Shown here: piece after piece, positions 4,716-11,037 of the stretch
How positions within the stretch are numbered: the stretch's first letter is position 1
How the letters are laid out: the number at the start of each line of letters is the position of its first letter
DNA from: a virus
DNA length: 20,658 nt
Reading direction: 5' to 3' (one strand)
IMG/VR virus record: IMGVR_UViG_3300025698_000074
Span: 1-20,658 of that record
The notes under the pieces: model-generated
What the model saw: only the letters and a program-made list of their open reading frames with translations
Told to the model about the DNA's origin: nothing
Database searches by the model: none
Made by a program: the position numbers and the translations under genes

Positions 4716-4834
4716 TGAACACACAAAACCGAATCGTACCGAAAGACAAATCATACCGGCCGAAATTGTGGCTTACTATCCTTGTAGTTGGATTGGTAGT
4801 TTTAACAGTTTGTGTTGGACTTATATTCACTTAA
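4715..4834 (+). CDS. Single-pass membrane mini-protein, 39 aa
   Basis: ATG at 4715 overlaps the preceding stop and reads 39 codons to TAA at 4832-4834. Residues 1-17 are polar and basic (MNTQNRIVPKDKSYRPK). Residues 18-39 form one hydrophobic helix (LWLTILVVGLVVLTVCVGLI), so it should insert in the inner membrane with the N-terminus in the cytoplasm. Unknown role. Such mini-proteins in early operons sometimes act on host membrane functions, but nothing here shows this. Confidence 0.5.
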   Translation: MNTQNRIVPKDKSYRPKLWLTILVVGLVVLTVCVGLIFT

Positions 4835-4877
4835 AACCAAATCACACCCAAAGCTAAACGTAAATAAAAACAAAAAC

Positions 4878-5753
4878 ATGAAAACAATTAAAGGAGTAAA
4901 AGCATTTGAAAAAGGATTGAAATGTAAAGGATTTCAGTTTGAGGAAAACAAAGAATTTGTTCACAAAGGAGAATTAAAAATTTGTGAAAGTGGATTCCAT
5001 TTTTGCGAAAACCCATTAGACACACTTAATTATTATGATTTATGTAATTCGGATTTTGCGGAAGTAGAAGCCATTGGGGAGACGGAAAATCATAATAATG
5101 ACTCGAAAATTACAACCAACAAATTAAAGATTGGATTAAAGATTGATTTAAAAAGATTTATTGAATTGTCTTTTGAGTACATTTGGAATAAGACAAAAGA
5201 CAAAGCAAGTGGAGATTACAGCAAGTTAGCCATAAGTGGAGATTACAGCCAGTTAGCCACAAGTGGAGATAACAGCCAGTTAGCCACAAGTGGAGATTAC
5301 AGCAAGTTAGCCACAAGTGGATATTACAGCCAGTTAGCCACAAGTGGATATAACAGCCAGTTAGCCACAAGTGGAGATAACAGCAAGTTAGCCACAAGTG
5401 GATATAACAGCCAGTTAGCCACAAGTGGATATAACAGCCAGTTAGCCACAAGTGGAGATAACAGCAAGTTAGCCACAAGTGGATATAACAGCCAGTTAGC
5501 CACAAGTGGAGATTACAGCCAGTTAGCCACAAGTGGAGATAACAGCAAGTTAGAAATAAACGGGCAAAATTCAGTAGGTGCAAACATAGGCGTTAATGGC
5601 ATAATAAAAGGAAAAATAGGAACATGGATTACGCTTGCTGAATATGATTGTCAAGGGAAATGTCTCTGTGTGAAGTCTGCAAAAATTGATGGTAAAAAAA
5701 TAAAAGAAGATGTTTGGTATAAATTAGAAAACGGTAAATTCACAGAACATTAA
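4878..5753 (+). CDS. Nonapeptide-repeat solenoid protein
   Basis: 291 residues from ATG at 4878. An upstream in-frame ATG at 4812 is unlikely because it lies inside the membrane mini-gene, and 4878 has the operon's usual AAAACATGAAAA context. Residues 1-110 form a conserved-looking N-domain with KGVKAFEKGLKCKGFQFEEN and CESGFHFCENPLDTLNYYD, like an N-domain I recall from phage proteins (possibly DUF7666). Residues 111-227 are 13 perfect-register nonapeptides (SGDYSQLAT, SGYNSQLAT, SGDNSKLAT). The remainder is a C-terminal beta domain with two close cysteines (CQGKCLC) and WYKLENGKF. Repeats of this kind probably fold as a beta-solenoid. Function unknown; a DNA-mimic or surface-binding role is conceivable, but the repeats are only mildly acidic. 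Confidence 0.7.
   Translation: MKTIKGVKAFEKGLKCKGFQFEENKEFVHKGELKICESGFHFCENPLDTLNYYDLCNSDFAEVEAIGETENHNNDSKITTNKLKIGLKIDLKRFIELSFEYIWNKTKDKASGDYSKLAISGDYSQLATSGDNSQLATSGDYSKLATSGYYSQLATSGYNSQLATSGDNSKLATSGYNSQLATSGYNSQLATSGDNSKLATSGYNSQLATSGDYSQLATSGDNSKLEINGQNSVGANIGVNGIIKGKIGTWITLAEYDCQGKCLCVKSAKIDGKKIKEDVWYKLENGKFTEH
5208..5558 (+). repeat. 13 tandem 27-bp repeats in the solenoid gene
   Basis: Each unit reads like AGTGGAGATTACAGCCAG followed by TTAGCCACA. Variation is almost limited to GAT/TAT, TAC/AAC and CAG/AAG. The DNA identity exceeds what protein conservation needs, so the array is probably young or kept homogeneous by recombination, and its copy number may vary. Confidence 0.9.
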
Positions 5754-5816: not shown

Positions 5817-5978
5817 ATGCAAACCGAATTAACCCTATTTGAATCCACCCCGACTAAAGGCGAGATAGTTTGTCGCCGGATAGTTCAGAGGTGCTTAGAA
5901 GCCGGAACAAGACCGAATAAGCGTACATTTAAAATGATATCTATTCATGAAATAATACTCAGGTATGGAAATGATTAA
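5817..5978 (+). CDS. Small basic hypothetical protein, 53 aa
   Basis: ATG at 5817 reads MQTELTLFESTPTKGEIVCR to TAA at 5976-5978. It is basic, with a probable helix-turn-helix-like content (CRRIVQRCLEAGTRPNKRTF), but too short to assign. It overlaps the start of the HNH gene at 5965 by 14 bases. Codon use is richer in G+C than that of the HNH gene, suggesting it belongs to the older phage backbone and that the HNH gene came in after it. Confidence 0.5.
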   Translation: MQTELTLFESTPTKGEIVCRRIVQRCLEAGTRPNKRTFKMISIHEIILRYGND

Positions 5979-6639
5979 TGAATTATATTTGCCTATACCG
6001 ATTAGGCGGATTGCTTATAATAAGGGAAAGTATTTTACAATTAATGAAATTGAAGCTATTGGTAGTTTATATCCTTTTATGAGTAATAATGAAATAGGTA
6101 AACAATTTGGAAGATCAGCAAGTTCGATAAAAAACTTAAGTAATAAATATGGGTGGATAAAAAATAATGAGTACCTTAAATCAAAACCAGGATGTTTTAA
6201 AAAAGGCGGGAAGGGATGGAATAAAGGAATTAAAAAATATATGGGAGCAAATAAAACGTCTTTTCACACCGGACACGTTCCATCTAATTTTAAAAAAGAA
6301 GGTACTATATCTTTGCGTTACCATTTAAGAGCTGGAATTAGTTATAAATACATAAAGGCTAATAAAAAATGGATCCTTTTACATCGCTATAATTGGGTAC
6401 AAAAATATGGTAAAATTCCTATTGGAATGGTAATTGCTTTCAAAGATAAAAACACTGATAATTGTGATGTAGAAAATTTAATGCTTATCTCCAGACAGGA
6501 AAATTTAAAACGTAATCTTAATAGAGAAAAGGCAATAGAAAAGATGAAGTTATTATGGAGGAAAGAAAAATTAAGATTTAATTATGGACTAAAGCCAATA
6601 ACTGGATTTGGTAAACTGTTAAATAATAATGCGAAATGA
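5965..6639 (+). CDS. HNH homing endonuclease with DNA-binding modules
   Basis: 224 residues. Residues 24-66 resemble a small helix-turn-helix (MSNNEIGKQFGRSASSIKNL). Residues 77-115 have the FKKG-x-x-WNKG type motif of NUMOD3-like nuclease modules. The core is HRYNWVQKYGKIPIGMVIAF followed by DKNTDNCDVENLMLISR, which matches the HNH_3 layout (HR-x-W, G-x-I-P-x-G, D-N-x-x-x-N-L). H140, N163 and N171 are present, but the usual HH after the central strand reads AF (158-159), so the catalytic site is atypical. The gene is markedly AT-rich compared with its neighbours and lies between two small overlapping genes, fitting a mobile homing gene. Such enzymes nick DNA at a target lacking the gene. Start at 5965; Met3 is also possible. 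Confidence 0.75.
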   Translation: MEMINELYLPIPIRRIAYNKGKYFTINEIEAIGSLYPFMSNNEIGKQFGRSASSIKNLSNKYGWIKNNEYLKSKPGCFKKGGKGWNKGIKKYMGANKTSFHTGHVPSNFKKEGTISLRYHLRAGISYKYIKANKKWILLHRYNWVQKYGKIPIGMVIAFKDKNTDNCDVENLMLISRQENLKRNLNREKAIEKMKLLWRKEKLRFNYGLKPITGFGKLLNNNAK

Positions 6640-6806
6640 AAATACTTGAACTAACTAAGCGCAGACCTTCAGGAATAAACACGTATCAGATCGTGAACGA
6701 ATCCGGTGAGCCTTGTATCGTTAAGAATAAAAACGGGTTCGTGGTCGATTACGGGGTGAGATTAATTAGAGAAATTAACTTAAATAATTTTGTTTTATTC
6801 AAATAG
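6636..6806 (+). CDS. Small hypothetical protein, 56 aa
   Basis: ATG at 6636 overlaps the HNH stop by ATGA and reads MKILELTKRRPSGINTYQIV on to TAG at 6804-6806. It looks like a small beta-rich domain (IVNESGEPCIVKNKNGFVVD). Unrecognised. Its higher G+C matches the gene at 5817 rather than the HNH gene, so the two may once have been adjacent. Its last codons overlap the promoter at 6789-6820. Confidence 0.5.
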   Translation: MKILELTKRRPSGINTYQIVNESGEPCIVKNKNGFVVDYGVRLIREINLNNFVLFK

Positions 6807-6820
6807 ATTTTGTATATTTG
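6789..6820 (+). promoter_or_regulatory. Strong consensus Bacteroidota promoter
   Basis: TTTG (6789-6792), 20 bases, TATATTTG (6813-6820): a full match to the -33/-7 consensus. The start point would be near 6827, some 127 bases before the methylase start, leaving room for the leader frame and hairpin at 6842-6943. Confidence 0.75.
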
Positions 6821-6841
6821 TTTTAGCAAATATAAAGTAAC

Positions 6842-6961
6842 ATGGATTCAATTAGACTTATTATTAACCAAAATAACCCTGCACCGGGCTGTTACTTCTA
6901 TCTCTATGTTAGTTGTATTTGCTCTCCTGGTGTGGGGTTTTTATATTTAATTTATGGGTGA
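6842..6961 (+). CDS. Possible 39-residue leader peptide
   Basis: ATG at 6842 (AAAGTAACATGG) reads 39 codons to TGA at 6959-6961, overlapping the methylase start at 6954. The peptide is hydrophobic and rich in Tyr and Cys (CYFYLYVSCICSPGVGFLYL). The whole attenuator hairpin at 6875-6939 lies within it, so translation would affect hairpin folding as in leader-peptide attenuation. It may also be a chance frame; there is no homology evidence. Confidence 0.3.
   Translation: MDSIRLIINQNNPAPGCYFYLYVSCICSPGVGFLYLIYG
6875..6943 (+). terminator. Attenuator-like terminator before the methylase
   Basis: AACCCTGCACC (6875-6885) pairs with GGTGTGGGGTT (6929-6939) over 11 bp with two wobbles, followed by a T-rich tail to 6942 and ATATTT. 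The 43-base loop is long. Lying between a strong promoter and the methylase, it could end part of the transcripts at about 115 bases and so limit expression. Confidence 0.5.
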
Positions 6962-7943
6962 ATTAGCAAAAATAAAATCATTTAGAACGGAACTTGCACT
7001 TGTAGAAACGTTTGAGGAAATGAAATTAATCGGTAATGCAGCTGAGGCGTATTTACAGTTAATGAAAAAACAAAAAGTATCTACTGATGCACAAAATGAA
7101 ATAGCTGAATTTATTGTTGAAGTTGAAGAAAAGAAAGGGGAATGGTTGGATGCTAACTATCCGCATGGAGGGCATGGATCAAATCAATATAAATGTGCAG
7201 AGGTATCAAATGATGACCTCAGCAAAATGCCAGCCACAAAAAAGGAATCTGCAAGGGCCAGGGCAATAAGCAAAGCACCTGAAGAAAAAAAGGAAGCTAT
7301 AAAGGAAGCCATAAAAAAGCAAGGTGGCGTTGTAACAGTTAATAAAATTTGTTCTGAATTAATAAAAGAAGAACGCAACAAACAAATTGAAGAACAAATT
7401 GAGGAAATATCTAAAACGGAATTAAGGATTAATGGCAAATATGATGTTATAGTAATCGACCCACCGTGGAACTATGGCAGAAAATATGATCCTGAAACAA
7501 GTAGAGTTGCTAATCCATATCCTGAAATGAACTTTGAAGAGTTGAGTAAATTGGAAATGCCAGCAGAAAATAACGCAATTATGTGGTTATGGAGTACACA
7601 GGCATTTATTTGGGATGCTAAAAAACTTATGGATATTTGGGGATTTGATTATAAAGCTATGTTAATATGGAATAAAGAAAATATGGGTATGGGTTATTGG
7701 TTAAGAATGCAATGTGAATTTTGTATACTTGGAATAAAAGGAAAACCAATTTGGAATAACACAAAATGGAGAGATATAATAACAGAACCACGGAGGGAAC
7801 ATAGCAGAAAACCTAAAATATTTTATCAAATGATAGATGAAATTTGTTTTGGTAAAAAAGCAGATTATTTCGGCAGAGAAAAACGCCCCGGATGGGATGT
7901 ATTTGGGAATGATATAAATAAATTCAATGAGTTGGCAAGATAA
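6954..7943 (+). CDS. MT-A70-family adenine-N6 DNA methyltransferase
   Basis: 329 residues. The C-terminal half is an MT-A70 domain: YDVIVIDPPWNYGRKYDP (163-180) contains the catalytic DPPW at 169-172, followed by FEELSKLEMPAENNAIMWLW and YKAMLIWNKENMG, with the S-adenosylmethionine site expected near the C-terminal REHSRKP and W-x-x-FG motifs. It would transfer a methyl group to adenine N6 in DNA. Residues 1-150 are a helical extension (AEAYLQLMKKQKVS, KKESARARAISKAPEEKKEA) as in many phage MT-A70 proteins, perhaps for DNA binding or site choice. It is the first main gene after the strong promoter and attenuator, and overlaps the nuclease gene by 17 bases. The likely use is protection from host restriction, marking of phage DNA or self-protection from the adjoining nuclease. 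Confidence 0.88.
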   Translation: MGELAKIKSFRTELALVETFEEMKLIGNAAEAYLQLMKKQKVSTDAQNEIAEFIVEVEEKKGEWLDANYPHGGHGSNQYKCAEVSNDDLSKMPATKKESARARAISKAPEEKKEAIKEAIKKQGGVVTVNKICSELIKEERNKQIEEQIEEISKTELRINGKYDVIVIDPPWNYGRKYDPETSRVANPYPEMNFEELSKLEMPAENNAIMWLWSTQAFIWDAKKLMDIWGFDYKAMLIWNKENMGMGYWLRMQCEFCILGIKGKPIWNNTKWRDIITEPRREHSRKPKIFYQMIDEICFGKKADYFGREKRPGWDVFGNDINKFNELAR

Positions 7944-8427
7944 AATACAGGTAAAAAAAGGAAATATAGGAGAATCTTATGTTAAATTATTCCTTGAAAA
8001 AATGGGATTTATAGTTTATGCGCCAATAACGGAAGGTTCTCATAAAATTGATTTTTTTGCACACCACGGAGATAAAAAAAATGTTATATCTATCGAAGCA
8101 AAAGCAAAAAAAAGAATGGCAATATATGAAGAAACAGGATTTAATTATAATGCTTATTTACATTATTTAGAGATACAAAAAAAACATAATATTCCAACAT
8201 ATATTTATTTTATAGATGAATTTGAAGAGTGTATTTATGGACAATGGTTAGAAAAATTAGGTGAAGGAATAATAAGAAAAAATGTTATTGTTTGGAATTT
8301 ATCGAAAATGCAATTTTTAAGATGGCTTACAAAAGATGAAATCGAAGAATTAAAAAAATATACCGCAAAAGATAATTATGATTATTCAAAAGTAAATAAA
8401 TATTTTTCAAAAAATGGCACTACGTAA
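7927..8427 (+). CDS. PD-(D/E)XK superfamily nuclease
   Basis: 166 residues. KKGNIGESYVKLFLEKMGFI (10-29) has the conserved first-helix Glu (E16), KIDFF supplies D42 and SIEAKAKKR supplies E57-x-K59. These are the active-site positions of the PD-(D/E)XK fold found in restriction enzymes, Holliday-junction resolvases and related nucleases. The remainder is unusually rich in Lys, Tyr and Ile. It overlaps the methylase by 17 bases and the replisome organiser by 14, so all three are one operon. Together with the methylase it could form a phage restriction-modification pair that cuts unmodified DNA, or it could be a resolvase or repair nuclease; sequence alone cannot separate these. Confidence 0.7.
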   Translation: MSWQDKIQVKKGNIGESYVKLFLEKMGFIVYAPITEGSHKIDFFAHHGDKKNVISIEAKAKKRMAIYEETGFNYNAYLHYLEIQKKHNIPTYIYFIDEFEECIYGQWLEKLGEGIIRKNVIVWNLSKMQFLRWLTKDEIEELKKYTAKDNYDYSKVNKYFSKNGTT

Positions 8428-9151
8428 CCAACCATATTTACCATTATACATTCAGGACTATTTAACTGATGAAAAGCTAAATATGTGTAGTTGGCAGACA
8501 CAAGGAATTTATATAAAAATACTTTGCATTTTACATAAACAAGAAAAGTATGGTATTATTTTGTTTAAACAAAAGGATAAACAAAACTTGAGCAAGCTAA
8601 ATGAATTTGCTTCCATTTTGATTCGTAATTTGCCATGCCAAAAAGAAGATATGATTTTAGCTTTAGAAGAATTAATTGAAAATAAAGTTTTAATAATTAA
8701 TGATAATATGCTAATACAAAAGCGTATGGTAAGGGATGGGGAGATAAGTGAAGCAAGATCGATAGCAGGTAAAAAAGGAGGTGGCAACCCTATTTTGTTT
8801 AAACAAAAAGATAAACTAATCCCTGAAGATGAATATGAAGATGAAGATATAAATAAAGATAAAGTAAATAATATAAATATTGTATTTGAAAACTTCAGAA
8901 CAGAATATCCCGGAATTAAGCGAGGTTATACAACTGAATTTGACAATTTCAAAAAGAAGCATAAAGACTGGAAAGATATTTTACCTTATTTACTTTTGAA
9001 ATTAGAAGATCAGGTAAAGCACCGGAGCAAAAAGGCCAGTTTCGGATCGTTCGTACCGGAATGGAAGAATTTACAAACGTGGATAAATCAAAGAAGCTGG
9101 GAAGAGGAGATAAATATAGAATTTAACAAACCGAATGCGGTAAAATTATAA
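8414..9151 (+). CDS. Replisome organiser (DUF1376-like replication protein)
   Basis: 245 residues. The N-terminus RNQPYLPLYIQDYLTDEKLN (4-23) followed by CSWQTQGIYIKILCILHKQ is the start of DUF1376/YdaU-type phage replication proteins, a winged-helix domain. A hinge AGKKGGGNP (118-126) and an acidic low-complexity linker (IPEDEYEDEDINKDK) follow. The C-terminal domain with KHKDWKDILPYLLLKLEDQ and WKNLQTWINQRSWEEE resembles the helicase-contacting region. Such proteins bind the origin and load the DnaB-type helicase, encoded here at 9398. Residues 49-56 and 127-134 are identical (ILFKQKDK), because a 26-bp DNA element occurs twice within the gene, probably as an origin. The stop is 5 bases before the next gene. 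Confidence 0.75.
   Translation: MALRNQPYLPLYIQDYLTDEKLNMCSWQTQGIYIKILCILHKQEKYGIILFKQKDKQNLSKLNEFASILIRNLPCQKEDMILALEELIENKVLIINDNMLIQKRMVRDGEISEARSIAGKKGGGNPILFKQKDKLIPEDEYEDEDINKDKVNNINIVFENFRTEYPGIKRGYTTEFDNFKKKHKDWKDILPYLLLKLEDQVKHRSKKASFGSFVPEWKNLQTWINQRSWEEEINIEFNKPNAVKL
8557..8582 (+). repeat. Palindromic iteron, copy 1 (candidate origin)
   Basis: TATTTTGTTTAAACAAAA followed by G and GATAAAC. Positions 8559-8574 are a perfect 16-bp palindrome, TTTTGTTTAAACAAAA. The 26-bp unit recurs 234 bp downstream with one change. It lies within the replisome organiser gene, as lambda O-protein sites lie within gene O. Confidence 0.6.
8791..8816 (+). repeat. Palindromic iteron, copy 2 (candidate origin)
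   Basis: The same 26-bp unit as at 8557, differing only at 8809 (A for G). The palindrome is at 8793-8808. It sits next to the AT-rich acidic-linker coding sequence (about 8820-8890), which could serve as a melting region. Confidence 0.6.
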
Positions 9152-9155
9152 AGCT

Positions 9156-9386
9156 ATGACAGATAAAGAATTTAAAGAAGCAAAAAAAGTGGCAGATGAA
9201 TTAGAAGATAAAATTGCGGCCATGCACTTTTCATTGGAATATGTTCAAATTGCAAAATTAGCAGAATTTGCAGCTACGGAAATAAGAACACAAATTCCAA
9301 TGTATATAGGCAATTTAAAAAACCCAAAGTGGAAATTGTATAATTATGTTGTTGCTTTGCTAAAAGATAGAATAAATGGTGCATAA
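9156..9386 (+). CDS. Small helical hypothetical protein, 76 aa
   Basis: Begins MTDKEFKEAKKVADELEDKI and is helical throughout, with no membrane segment or cysteines. It lies between the replisome organiser and DnaB with gaps of 4 and 11 bases. A role as helicase-loading or replisome accessory would fit the position, but there is no motif evidence. Confidence 0.6.
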   Translation: MTDKEFKEAKKVADELEDKIAAMHFSLEYVQIAKLAEFAATEIRTQIPMYIGNLKNPKWKLYNYVVALLKDRINGA

Positions 9387-9397
9387 CATTAAACAAA

Positions 9398-10684
9398 ATG
9401 GATAAATTACCCCCTCAAAATATAGAAGCTGAAGAAGCGGTACTTGGCGGACTGTTAATAGAGAATTCGCATCATGAGTATATTGACAGCATCCAGCCTG
9501 AATATTTCTATAAAATTCAGCATCAGGACATATTCAAAGTTATTCAGAAGCTATACAGGGAAAGGAAGGATATTGACATTCTAACGGTAACGGATGAATT
9601 AGGAAAATATGCTATTGAGATCAGTAAGTTACCTTCAAAGATCGGTGCAAGTTCTCATTTACCTGAACACCTTGCTATAATTATTGAGTATCATTTACGA
9701 AGGGAGCTCATCAAAAAAAGTACCGAATTGTATAATAATTCATTCGACAAAGGTGTGGATGTTGAAGATTTAATTCAAGACTTAACAAATACAAATATTG
9801 AACTATCAGGGTTAATTTATAAGAATTGCGAGATAAAGACTATTCGGGAAGTGGCTAAAAATTGTATCGAAAATGCACGAATACGAAAAGGTAAATTTGA
9901 TAATAACGAACCGTTTGGAATAAATATGCACTTGGGTAAACTCCAAAAAGTACTATCCGGTTGGCACAATGGAGAATTAACGATATTAGCAGCTCGCCCT
10001 TCAATGGGTAAAACGGCCTTAGCTTTACAATTCGCCACCCAGGCAGCACAACAAGGGTACAACGTGTTATTCGTTTCGCTCGAAATGAGTGCGGAGTTGT
10101 TAGTAGATCGGATCCTTACCGGCAAGTCAGAGGTGAATTCAGAAAAGTACAAAAACGGTGATGTAACGAATTTAGACATTTCGTATATAGAAAACTCAGG
10201 ATCAGAAATTGAGAGCTACCGGTTTAACATCGCAGATAAAGGCAGTATAAGTGTAGATCAGATTTATACAATGATAAAAAAGCACACTCCGGATATTGTA
10301 TTTATTGATTACATTCAACTTGTCAGCAAAGGCAAAGGAATGAAAACCGACAATAGAAACCAGGAAATAGGTTATATAAGCAGAAGATTAAAGGCAGCGG
10401 CTAAGGACTTCAATATACCTATTGTGGCATTATCTCAGTTAAACAGAGGAGTTGAATCCAGGACAAACAAACGACCTGTTTTAAGCGACCTAAGAGAGTC
10501 AGGAGACATCGAGCAAGATGCGGATGTTGTTATGCTGCTTTATCGGAATTCATACTATGATAAAGAGGATGTTAGCCTAATAATGGAGATCAATATAGCT
10601 AAGAATCGTAACGGCCGAACCGGATTTACCGAGTGCGAACACAACGAAAGTTTTACGGATTTTTTCGATATTAAAGAATTTTAA
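9398..10684 (+). CDS. dnaB: Replicative DNA helicase, DnaB family
   Basis: 428 residues, near the usual DnaB length (about 450). The N-terminal domain starts PPQNIEAEEAVLGGLL, typical of DnaB. The RecA-like domain has Walker A ARPSMGKTA (199-207), the switch region LFVSLEMSAELLVDRIL, Walker B VFIDYIQLV (301-309), QEIGYISRRLKAAAKDFNIP and ALSQLNRGVESR (344-355), then LRESGDIEQDADVVMLLYR (365-383). It forms a hexamer that unwinds DNA at the phage fork with ATP. It should work with the replisome organiser encoded just upstream. All expected motifs are intact. Base use is more balanced than in the AT-rich block before it, suggesting the mosaic boundary lies around 9390. Confidence 0.97.
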   Translation: MDKLPPQNIEAEEAVLGGLLIENSHHEYIDSIQPEYFYKIQHQDIFKVIQKLYRERKDIDILTVTDELGKYAIEISKLPSKIGASSHLPEHLAIIIEYHLRRELIKKSTELYNNSFDKGVDVEDLIQDLTNTNIELSGLIYKNCEIKTIREVAKNCIENARIRKGKFDNNEPFGINMHLGKLQKVLSGWHNGELTILAARPSMGKTALALQFATQAAQQGYNVLFVSLEMSAELLVDRILTGKSEVNSEKYKNGDVTNLDISYIENSGSEIESYRFNIADKGSISVDQIYTMIKKHTPDIVFIDYIQLVSKGKGMKTDNRNQEIGYISRRLKAAAKDFNIPIVALSQLNRGVESRTNKRPVLSDLRESGDIEQDADVVMLLYRNSYYDKEDVSLIMEINIAKNRNGRTGFTECEHNESFTDFFDIKEF

Positions 10685-10695
10685 AACCAAAGGAT

Positions 10696-11037
10696 ATGCC
10701 AATAAAACCAGAAAATAAAAAAAGGTATCCTAAAAACTGGAAGCAAATATCAGAGGATATAAGATTTAACAGAGCTGGAAATAGATGCGAAGTTTGCGGG
10801 GCTATAAATTATAGCTGGGTGAATAGAAAAAGCAGGGAAATATGTTTATCTGACGAAGATGATGCTATAAGAATAATTCTAACAGTAGCACACCTTGACC
10901 ACACTCCTGAAAATTGTGATTACTCAAATTTAAAAGCTATGTGTCAGAAATGTCATAACAATTACGATAAAACACACCGTAAGCAAACAATTAGGGATTC
11001 TCATAATGTCGGCCAATTATCATTAAATATTATATAA
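10696..11037 (+). CDS. HNH endonuclease-like protein
   Basis: 113 residues with a zinc-ribbon HNH layout: C31-x-x-C34 (RCEVCGA), VAHLDHTPENCDYSNLKAMC (64-83) with H66 and H69, and C83-x-x-C86-H87 (CQKCHNNYD). The usual order is AHLDH, N and CxxCH, and all are present, so it is probably an active metal-dependent nuclease. Phage HNH proteins of this size act in DNA packaging next to terminase or in recombination; here it follows DnaB and precedes NinG, favouring a replication or recombination role. The start is 11 bases after DnaB. Confidence 0.75.
   Translation: MPIKPENKKRYPKNWKQISEDIRFNRAGNRCEVCGAINYSWVNRKSREICLSDEDDAIRIILTVAHLDHTPENCDYSNLKAMCQKCHNNYDKTHRKQTIRDSHNVGQLSLNII

Follow-up and report, generated by a model that had tools for sequence, protein, structure and literature searches.

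A little-known phage family seems to carry its replication start signal within the gene of the protein that reads it. The window, i.e., the whole stretch of 20,658 nucleotides of a virus record that was analyzed, contains two copies of a DNA repeat within a putative replication initiator gene, and we consider it highly probable that these are the initiator's own binding sites in its coding sequence and that they jointly make up the core of the phage's replication origin. Across the related genes, the putative sites form two clusters, one in the sequence coding for the predicted DNA-binding domain and the other in the sequence coding for the interdomain linker, and the two clusters change in sequence together. 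Judged by sequence, the case for a DNA signal rests on these relatives and not on the window genome.

The sequence TTTTGTTTAAACAAAA occurs exactly twice in the record, which is the whole virus entry (Table 1), and no third place within two mismatches of it was found anywhere in the window. Dinucleotide shuffles yielded a mean of 0.08 matches, and two copies appeared in none of the 100 shuffles. The 26-bp units containing the palindromes (8557-8582 and 8791-8816) are offset by 234 bp, or 78 codons, differ solely by G/A at 8575/8809, and both lie in one frame of the organizer ORF, where ILFKQKDK is encoded twice. The earlier note had described the region 8557-8816 in just these terms, from the 16-bp palindrome and the single mismatch to the shared frame and the repeated peptide, and our analysis confirmed all of them. 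The DNA repeat of the window gene is only weakly exceptional and is for the most part explained by the repeated peptide: the best 16-nt repeat matched at 16/16 positions, compared with a mean of 14.6 and a maximum of 16 in 20 synonymous-codon shuffles, and 26 positions matched over 28 nt, compared with a maximum of 24 in 10 such shuffles. Because the peptide is also repeated, the window alone is a weak witness for a DNA signal. At site 1, TAAACAAA stands 12 bp past the half-site at 8567. A search for a further cluster across the window gave one chance-like AACAAA pair at 7381 and nothing else. The GC skew, which had been proposed as a check, showed no turn near 8.5 kb, and the origin reading gets no support from it.

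Table 1. Features of the organizer gene and its surroundings in the window
Feature	Position	Strand	Basis and remarks
Replisome organizer/replication initiator gene, 245 aa	8414..9151	+	ORF; remote PHROG 13246 and DUF1376 matches; DnaB gene downstream
N-terminal domain, residues 1-123	8414..8782	+	Winged helix by AlphaFold2 prediction; presumed to read the iteron DNA
Site 1	8557..8585	.	Palindrome 8559-8574 plus third half-site TAAACAAA at 8579
Site 2	8791..8819	.	Palindrome 8793-8808 plus degenerate third half-site TAAACTAA; interdomain linker
AT-rich stretch	8830..8892	.	Directly past site 2; 87% A+T over 60 nt (8833-8892); candidate unwinding element
C-terminal domain	8861..9148	+	Common to organizers with unrelated N-domains; presumed replisome-recruiting part
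DnaB-type replicative helicase gene	9398..10684	+	Pfam DnaB_C, E 1.5e-83

A comparison of the whole window protein with Pfam found no family at E up to 0.1. The PHROG 13246 profile ('replisome organizer') was matched at E 0.0083 by the whole protein, at E 0.0044 by its N-part, and at E up to 0.01 by nine of the 11 members of alignment A2 (best E 2.3e-7); the label of replisome organizer given by the earlier note is therefore fair, but the match of the window protein is remote. Filing the protein as DUF1376/YdaU (PF07120) was rejected, since it scored 14.9 bits against a curated cut-off of 30.1; 66 of 92 members match this family at E up to 1, with a best E of 0.00022. The DnaB-type helicase encoded downstream is the likely partner of the organizer. 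The window also contains an HNH endonuclease gene (5965-6639; HNH_3, E 3.6e-15) upstream of an MT-A70-type methyltransferase gene (6954-7943), and a gene for a small protein (1816-2262) with a weak DnaA C-terminal (helix-turn-helix) match that is under the cut-off (E 6.9e-05). Tandem arrays were found in two further genes: an 18-bp array at 1286-1589 within a gene for a hexapeptide (left-handed beta-helix) repeat protein (1187-1819; Pfam Hexapep, E 1.4e-21), and a 27-bp array at 5206-5553 (12.9 copies, 93% matches), the source of an ATSGDYSQL-type repeat, within a gene for a DUF7666 protein (4812-5753).

Relatives were collected from viral contigs and GTDB genomes using the window protein and then alignments of its first 150 residues as queries. 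The searches gave 12, 10, 22, and 80 overlapping loci, the last figure being the best 80 of 87 viral relatives; the 111 entries comprised 96 distinct genes, or 95 after removal of L046, a broken 36-aa ORF. The weak matches L047 and L048 and the duplicate loci L015 and L024 were excluded from use. A dyad was scored when no more than two of the 12 fixed letters of TTTTGYNNNNRCAAAA were mismatched, and co-change was tabulated for the 82 genes with both dyads, with 13 of the 95 left out under this strict rule. Among 50,697 annotated phage records, no close relatives were found and only two weak matches, in Versailles and Pam1, whose self-repeats were not above those of synonymous shuffles. A search of plasmids found no close relatives of the organizer.

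The dyad TTTGYNNNNRCAAA was present at both places in 82 of the 95 related organizer genes. The two copies are in different reading frames in 74 of these 82, so that differing peptides are encoded by the same DNA dyad. The shared frame pointed out by the earlier note is real in the window but misleading as a clue, being an exception found in 8 of the 82. Site 1 is nearly always read in one frame, as ILLKQKDKQ, and site 2 is read in another frame in the 74 genes, as FAKAK, FAQAK, or FVKTK; LLKQK at site 1 and FAKAK at site 2, for example, arise from the same DNA. When the two regions were compared over 28 nt, their best match was one base off frame in 80 of the 95 genes which, together with the frame of site 2, argues that DNA is what is kept. 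In 85 of the 95 genes, the gene's own 28-nt repeat exceeded those of all 10 synonymous-codon shuffles.

The dinucleotide preceding CAAA was equal at both sites in 80 of the 82 genes, with related genes taken as separate (AG/AG in 63; AA/AA, the type of the window, in 10; GG/GG in six; and TA/TA in one), and the sole disagreeing genes were L089 and L113. Among the 68 genes with the peptide LLKQ at site 1, a lysine codon AAG was paired with G at site 2 in 63 genes, and AAA with A in the other five; i.e., the synonymous codon followed the site-2 base in 68 of 68, the share of AAG among the other lysine codons of these genes being 26.8%. On a tree of the N-domain constructed without the site-1 peptide, 13 changes of type fell on site 1 and 11 on site 2. 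Well-supported changes were those between L125 (GG/GG) and its sister L126 (AG/AG) and between L127 (AG) and the adjacent L031, L062, and L066 (AA); since the tree is mostly unresolved and these are the only two well-supported independent pairs, a tree-corrected sign test cannot reach significance. The alignment columns tracking the site type most strongly, 50-56 and 124-127, are those for which site 1 supplies the codons or that adjoin site 2. Position 30 is Q/H in all 10 AA-type genes; however, it is also Q in 13 AG-type genes, and we therefore claim no recognition residue. These results show that the putative DNA signal itself has been kept and has varied in parallel at both of its places in the gene. 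The relatives thus present the opposite of a peptide kept without its palindrome, the pattern that the earlier note had named as contrary to its proposal: the dyad is kept in different frames and its variants agree.

The earlier note had considered the palindromes to be iterons. Repeated sites are indeed present, but their unit is smaller than the 16-bp palindrome: the real unit is a putative half-site, [A/G]CAAA, that recurs at 11-12-bp intervals; in most cases, a single inverted copy at the upstream end produces the palindrome. In the 95 genes, the spacing between successive [AG]CAAA motifs was 12 bp in 236 cases and 11 bp in 39, compared with approximately 4-5 cases each in codon shuffles. 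At least two such half-sites were found in the first region of 75 and in the second region of 82 of the 95 genes, and the spacing of the two clusters was 223-313 bp. The site types found were AAGCAAA, AAACAAA, CGGCAAA, and TACAAA. L023 (3001-3909) contains 15 AGCAAA half-sites, in arrays of six and nine with 11-12-bp steps that fall in all three frames, and in L121 each place contains three copies of CGGCAAA.

Most of the 13 genes lacking one or both dyads still contain direct half-site arrays. The array is absent from L073, L123 has a dyad in the linker only, and L044, L115, and L118 have site 2 only, L115 and L118 with linker-only arrays of five CGGCAAA and four TCGCAAA. These exceptions indicate that site 1 is not universal and that site 2 is more regular than site 1. 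A T5orf172/MUG113 domain is located in the linker of L054 (2001-3104) and L102 (2001-3002), after the GG motif but before the site-2 array, i.e., between the iteron clusters; despite this insertion, L054 keeps its unusual TTTGTTTCAGCAAAA at both places.

The dyad TTTGYNNNNRCAAA was found 162 times in the 77,077 bp of the 96 genes, compared with 8 times in 360,904 bp of flanking sequence, and the pattern read backwards was found 0 times inside the 96 genes and 4 times in the flank. The dyad was absent from seven genes that share the C-terminal domain of the window protein but have other N-domains, showing that the putative sites track the N-terminal domain rather than the C-terminal one. The AT-rich sequence that the earlier note had placed next to the iterons is present beside site 2, where it includes an imperfect 18-bp tandem repeat at 8832-8877, and recurs in 80 relatives: the 60-nt segment 40-100 nt past site 2 had a median A+T percentile of 0.945 within the gene (n = 80), compared with 0.654 past site 1. 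Other 60-mers of the window are equally AT-rich. Repeated specific sites in the initiator's own coding sequence and an AT-rich stretch beside them are two features by which an intragenic iteron origin would be recognized, and both were found here.

The main rival to this reading, which we regard as unlikely, is that the sites are operators that the initiator binds to repress or roadblock its own transcription, with the origin elsewhere. The transcription unit of the initiator itself contains the sites, with site 1 lying 145 bp into the gene, and a co-change between operators at the DNA level would look identical. However, pairs of direct half-sites hardly ever occur in the 200-300 nt ahead of the genes (3 of 95), it is specifically site 2 that the AT-rich stretch follows, arrays of up to nine half-sites suit iterons better, and systems of like architecture are origins. 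Promoter-like matches in 6500-10800 were no commoner than in shuffles (16 versus 20.1), which, with the rarity of the upstream pairs, speaks against a promoter/operator reading.

An AlphaFold2 model of the N-domain, made with a 92-row alignment (A4, i.e., 92 of the 95 genes, excluding L041, L054, and L102), predicted a winged helix with a mean pLDDT of 82. The structural matches listed first were the N-domains of RepA_N initiators (4pql, 5kbj, 4pt7, and 4pta; Z 6.3-6.8 over 89 residues), directly followed by CRP-type proteins (Z 6.0-6.3), with the DnaD N-domain at 5.6. The RepA_N rows lead the 738 Foldseek matches, yet they are not separated from the CRP-type rows; the best E was 0.1, and no match was found at E up to 0.001. 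Comparing the N-domain profile with the sequences of solved structures gave no matches, and RepA_N (PF06970) was not among the best 25 of 60 Pfam families for the 92 members. Within the DNA-binding domain, the part encoded by site 1 comprises strand 48-50 and a loop modeled with low confidence, where relatives tolerate insertions. The C-domains are exchanged downstream of site 2.

An independent case of a related layout was observed in ydaU of the Escherichia coli K-12 Rac prophage (L131, 820-1677), in which TGTTCAAACA occurs three times, at locus positions 1212, 1245, and 1268, the last copy being inverted and in another frame. All three copies are within the ydaU linker, and none was found elsewhere in the 3.7-kb locus. 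The prophage gene L134, which has nearly the same N-domain as ydaU and a DnaT-type C-domain, keeps all three, and L132, which has the C-domain of ydaU and another N-domain, contains no TGTTCAAACA. The matches of ydaU across E. coli genomes break at approximately 485-506 of the gene, just past the TGTTCAAACA sites. Rac has an active origin, oriJ (PMC3945230). The TGTTCAAACA sites in ydaU are candidates for an origin in Rac or its relatives. DUF1376/YdaU thus resembles the window family in its N-domain, which is a remote match, and in its repeated linker sites in two frames; in contrast, the three sites of ydaU form one cluster, whereas the window family has two. Another organizer with an unrelated N-domain (L012, 4611-5537) contains AAACGACC-type linker repeats with 11-12-bp steps in more than one frame.

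These exchanges raise the possibility that the sites are recombination targets, either short homologies or the site of a recombinase or endonuclease, for exchange of the N- and C-domains. The replacement of C-domains past site 2, the breaks in the ydaU matches, and the T5orf172 domain inserted ahead of site 2 in L054 and L102 would fit such a role. Nevertheless, we consider it very improbable, as site 1 is in the middle of the N-domain, away from the exchange point, a fixed 11-12-bp pitch and co-changing clusters are not needed for exchange, and differences in the sites between lineages would hinder it. Scarcely credible is the explanation that the Lys/Gln-rich motif ILFKQKDK is simply used twice, with the DNA palindrome arising as a side effect. 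This would almost suffice for the window, where the copies are in frame and synonymous shuffles are often near-equal, and LFKQ also occurs twice in L001 and L049, but it fails on the relatives, in which the frames and peptides of the two copies mostly differ, the site-1 lysine codon follows the site-2 base, the repeats exceed codon shuffles, and the L023 array passes through every frame.

An origin within the initiator gene has precedents. In phage lambda, the origin is located mid-gene in O, and its inverted-repeat iterons are next to an AT-rich tract (PMC7466680, PMC6022878); the parallel with lambda O drawn by the earlier note was borne out in the architecture of initiator gene, iterons, and AT-rich stretch. 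The lambda iterons, however, are four 18-bp units in one cluster, 20-24 bp apart in the NC_001416 annotation, whereas the half-sites described here recur every 11-12 bp and form two clusters. The winged-helix N-domains of pSK41 Rep and pTZ2162 RepA are described as binding Rep boxes central in the rep gene; in the same account, the origin DNA of RepA_N plasmids encodes the linker, their C-domain is genus-specific, and the N-domain plus ori of pPR9 was exchanged as one unit (PMC5703833). Unlike those plasmid systems, the gene described here is a phage gene with a DnaB neighbor, and it has a second array inside the DNA-binding-domain coding sequence, which is found neither in lambda O nor in RepA_N plasmids. 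In SPP1, oriL lies within gene 38 and has direct repeats and an AT-rich unwinding element (PMC6316719). The likeness to gp38/oriL is thus one of described layout, with repeats and an AT-rich element in an initiator gene; SPP1 has a second origin, oriR, whereas no second site cluster was found elsewhere in the window.

Taken together, the system appears to work like an intragenic iteron origin and displays the testable sequence features of that kind. The N-terminal winged helix would bind the half-sites, as a dimer on the dyad and as additional monomers on the direct half-sites. Protein bound at site 2 may then melt the AT-rich stretch, and the exchangeable C-terminal domain would bring in the DnaB helicase. 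As some genes lack site 1, this cluster is probably accessory; it may serve to nucleate binding, to form a loop with site 2, or to restrain re-initiation. The location of the sites within the gene would keep the initiator and the origin together as one transferable module.

A search of the open-access literature found no paper on intragenic iterons in this organizer family or in YdaU. As far as that literature goes, the family, its putative second cluster among the codons of the DNA-binding domain, and a layout that is shifted in frame and co-changes over approximately 95 genes are new. We also favor, with less assurance than the origin itself, a broader rule: in a large phage and prophage initiator family (95 distinct genes from viral contigs and metagenome-assembled genomes), the origin would consist of two intragenic iteron clusters, one of them in the sequence of the reader domain, with protein and site forming a cis-linked module downstream of which the C-domain is exchanged, and this rule would extend to Rac YdaU and L012.

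One stretch of DNA would thus be under two constraints, coding for a DNA-binding domain and containing the presumed binding site of that domain. The site types with their matching N-domains offer a ready set for studying how a winged helix picks its site and, if the reading is true, the natural site variants would constitute a table of protein-DNA recognition. The swap of C-domains past the linker cluster suggests that a reader plus its origin moves as one part between phages. The replication origins of most uncultivated phages are unknown; here, a candidate origin can be located from the sequence of the initiator gene and, if the reading is true, the origins of many uncultivated phages would be readable straight from that gene.
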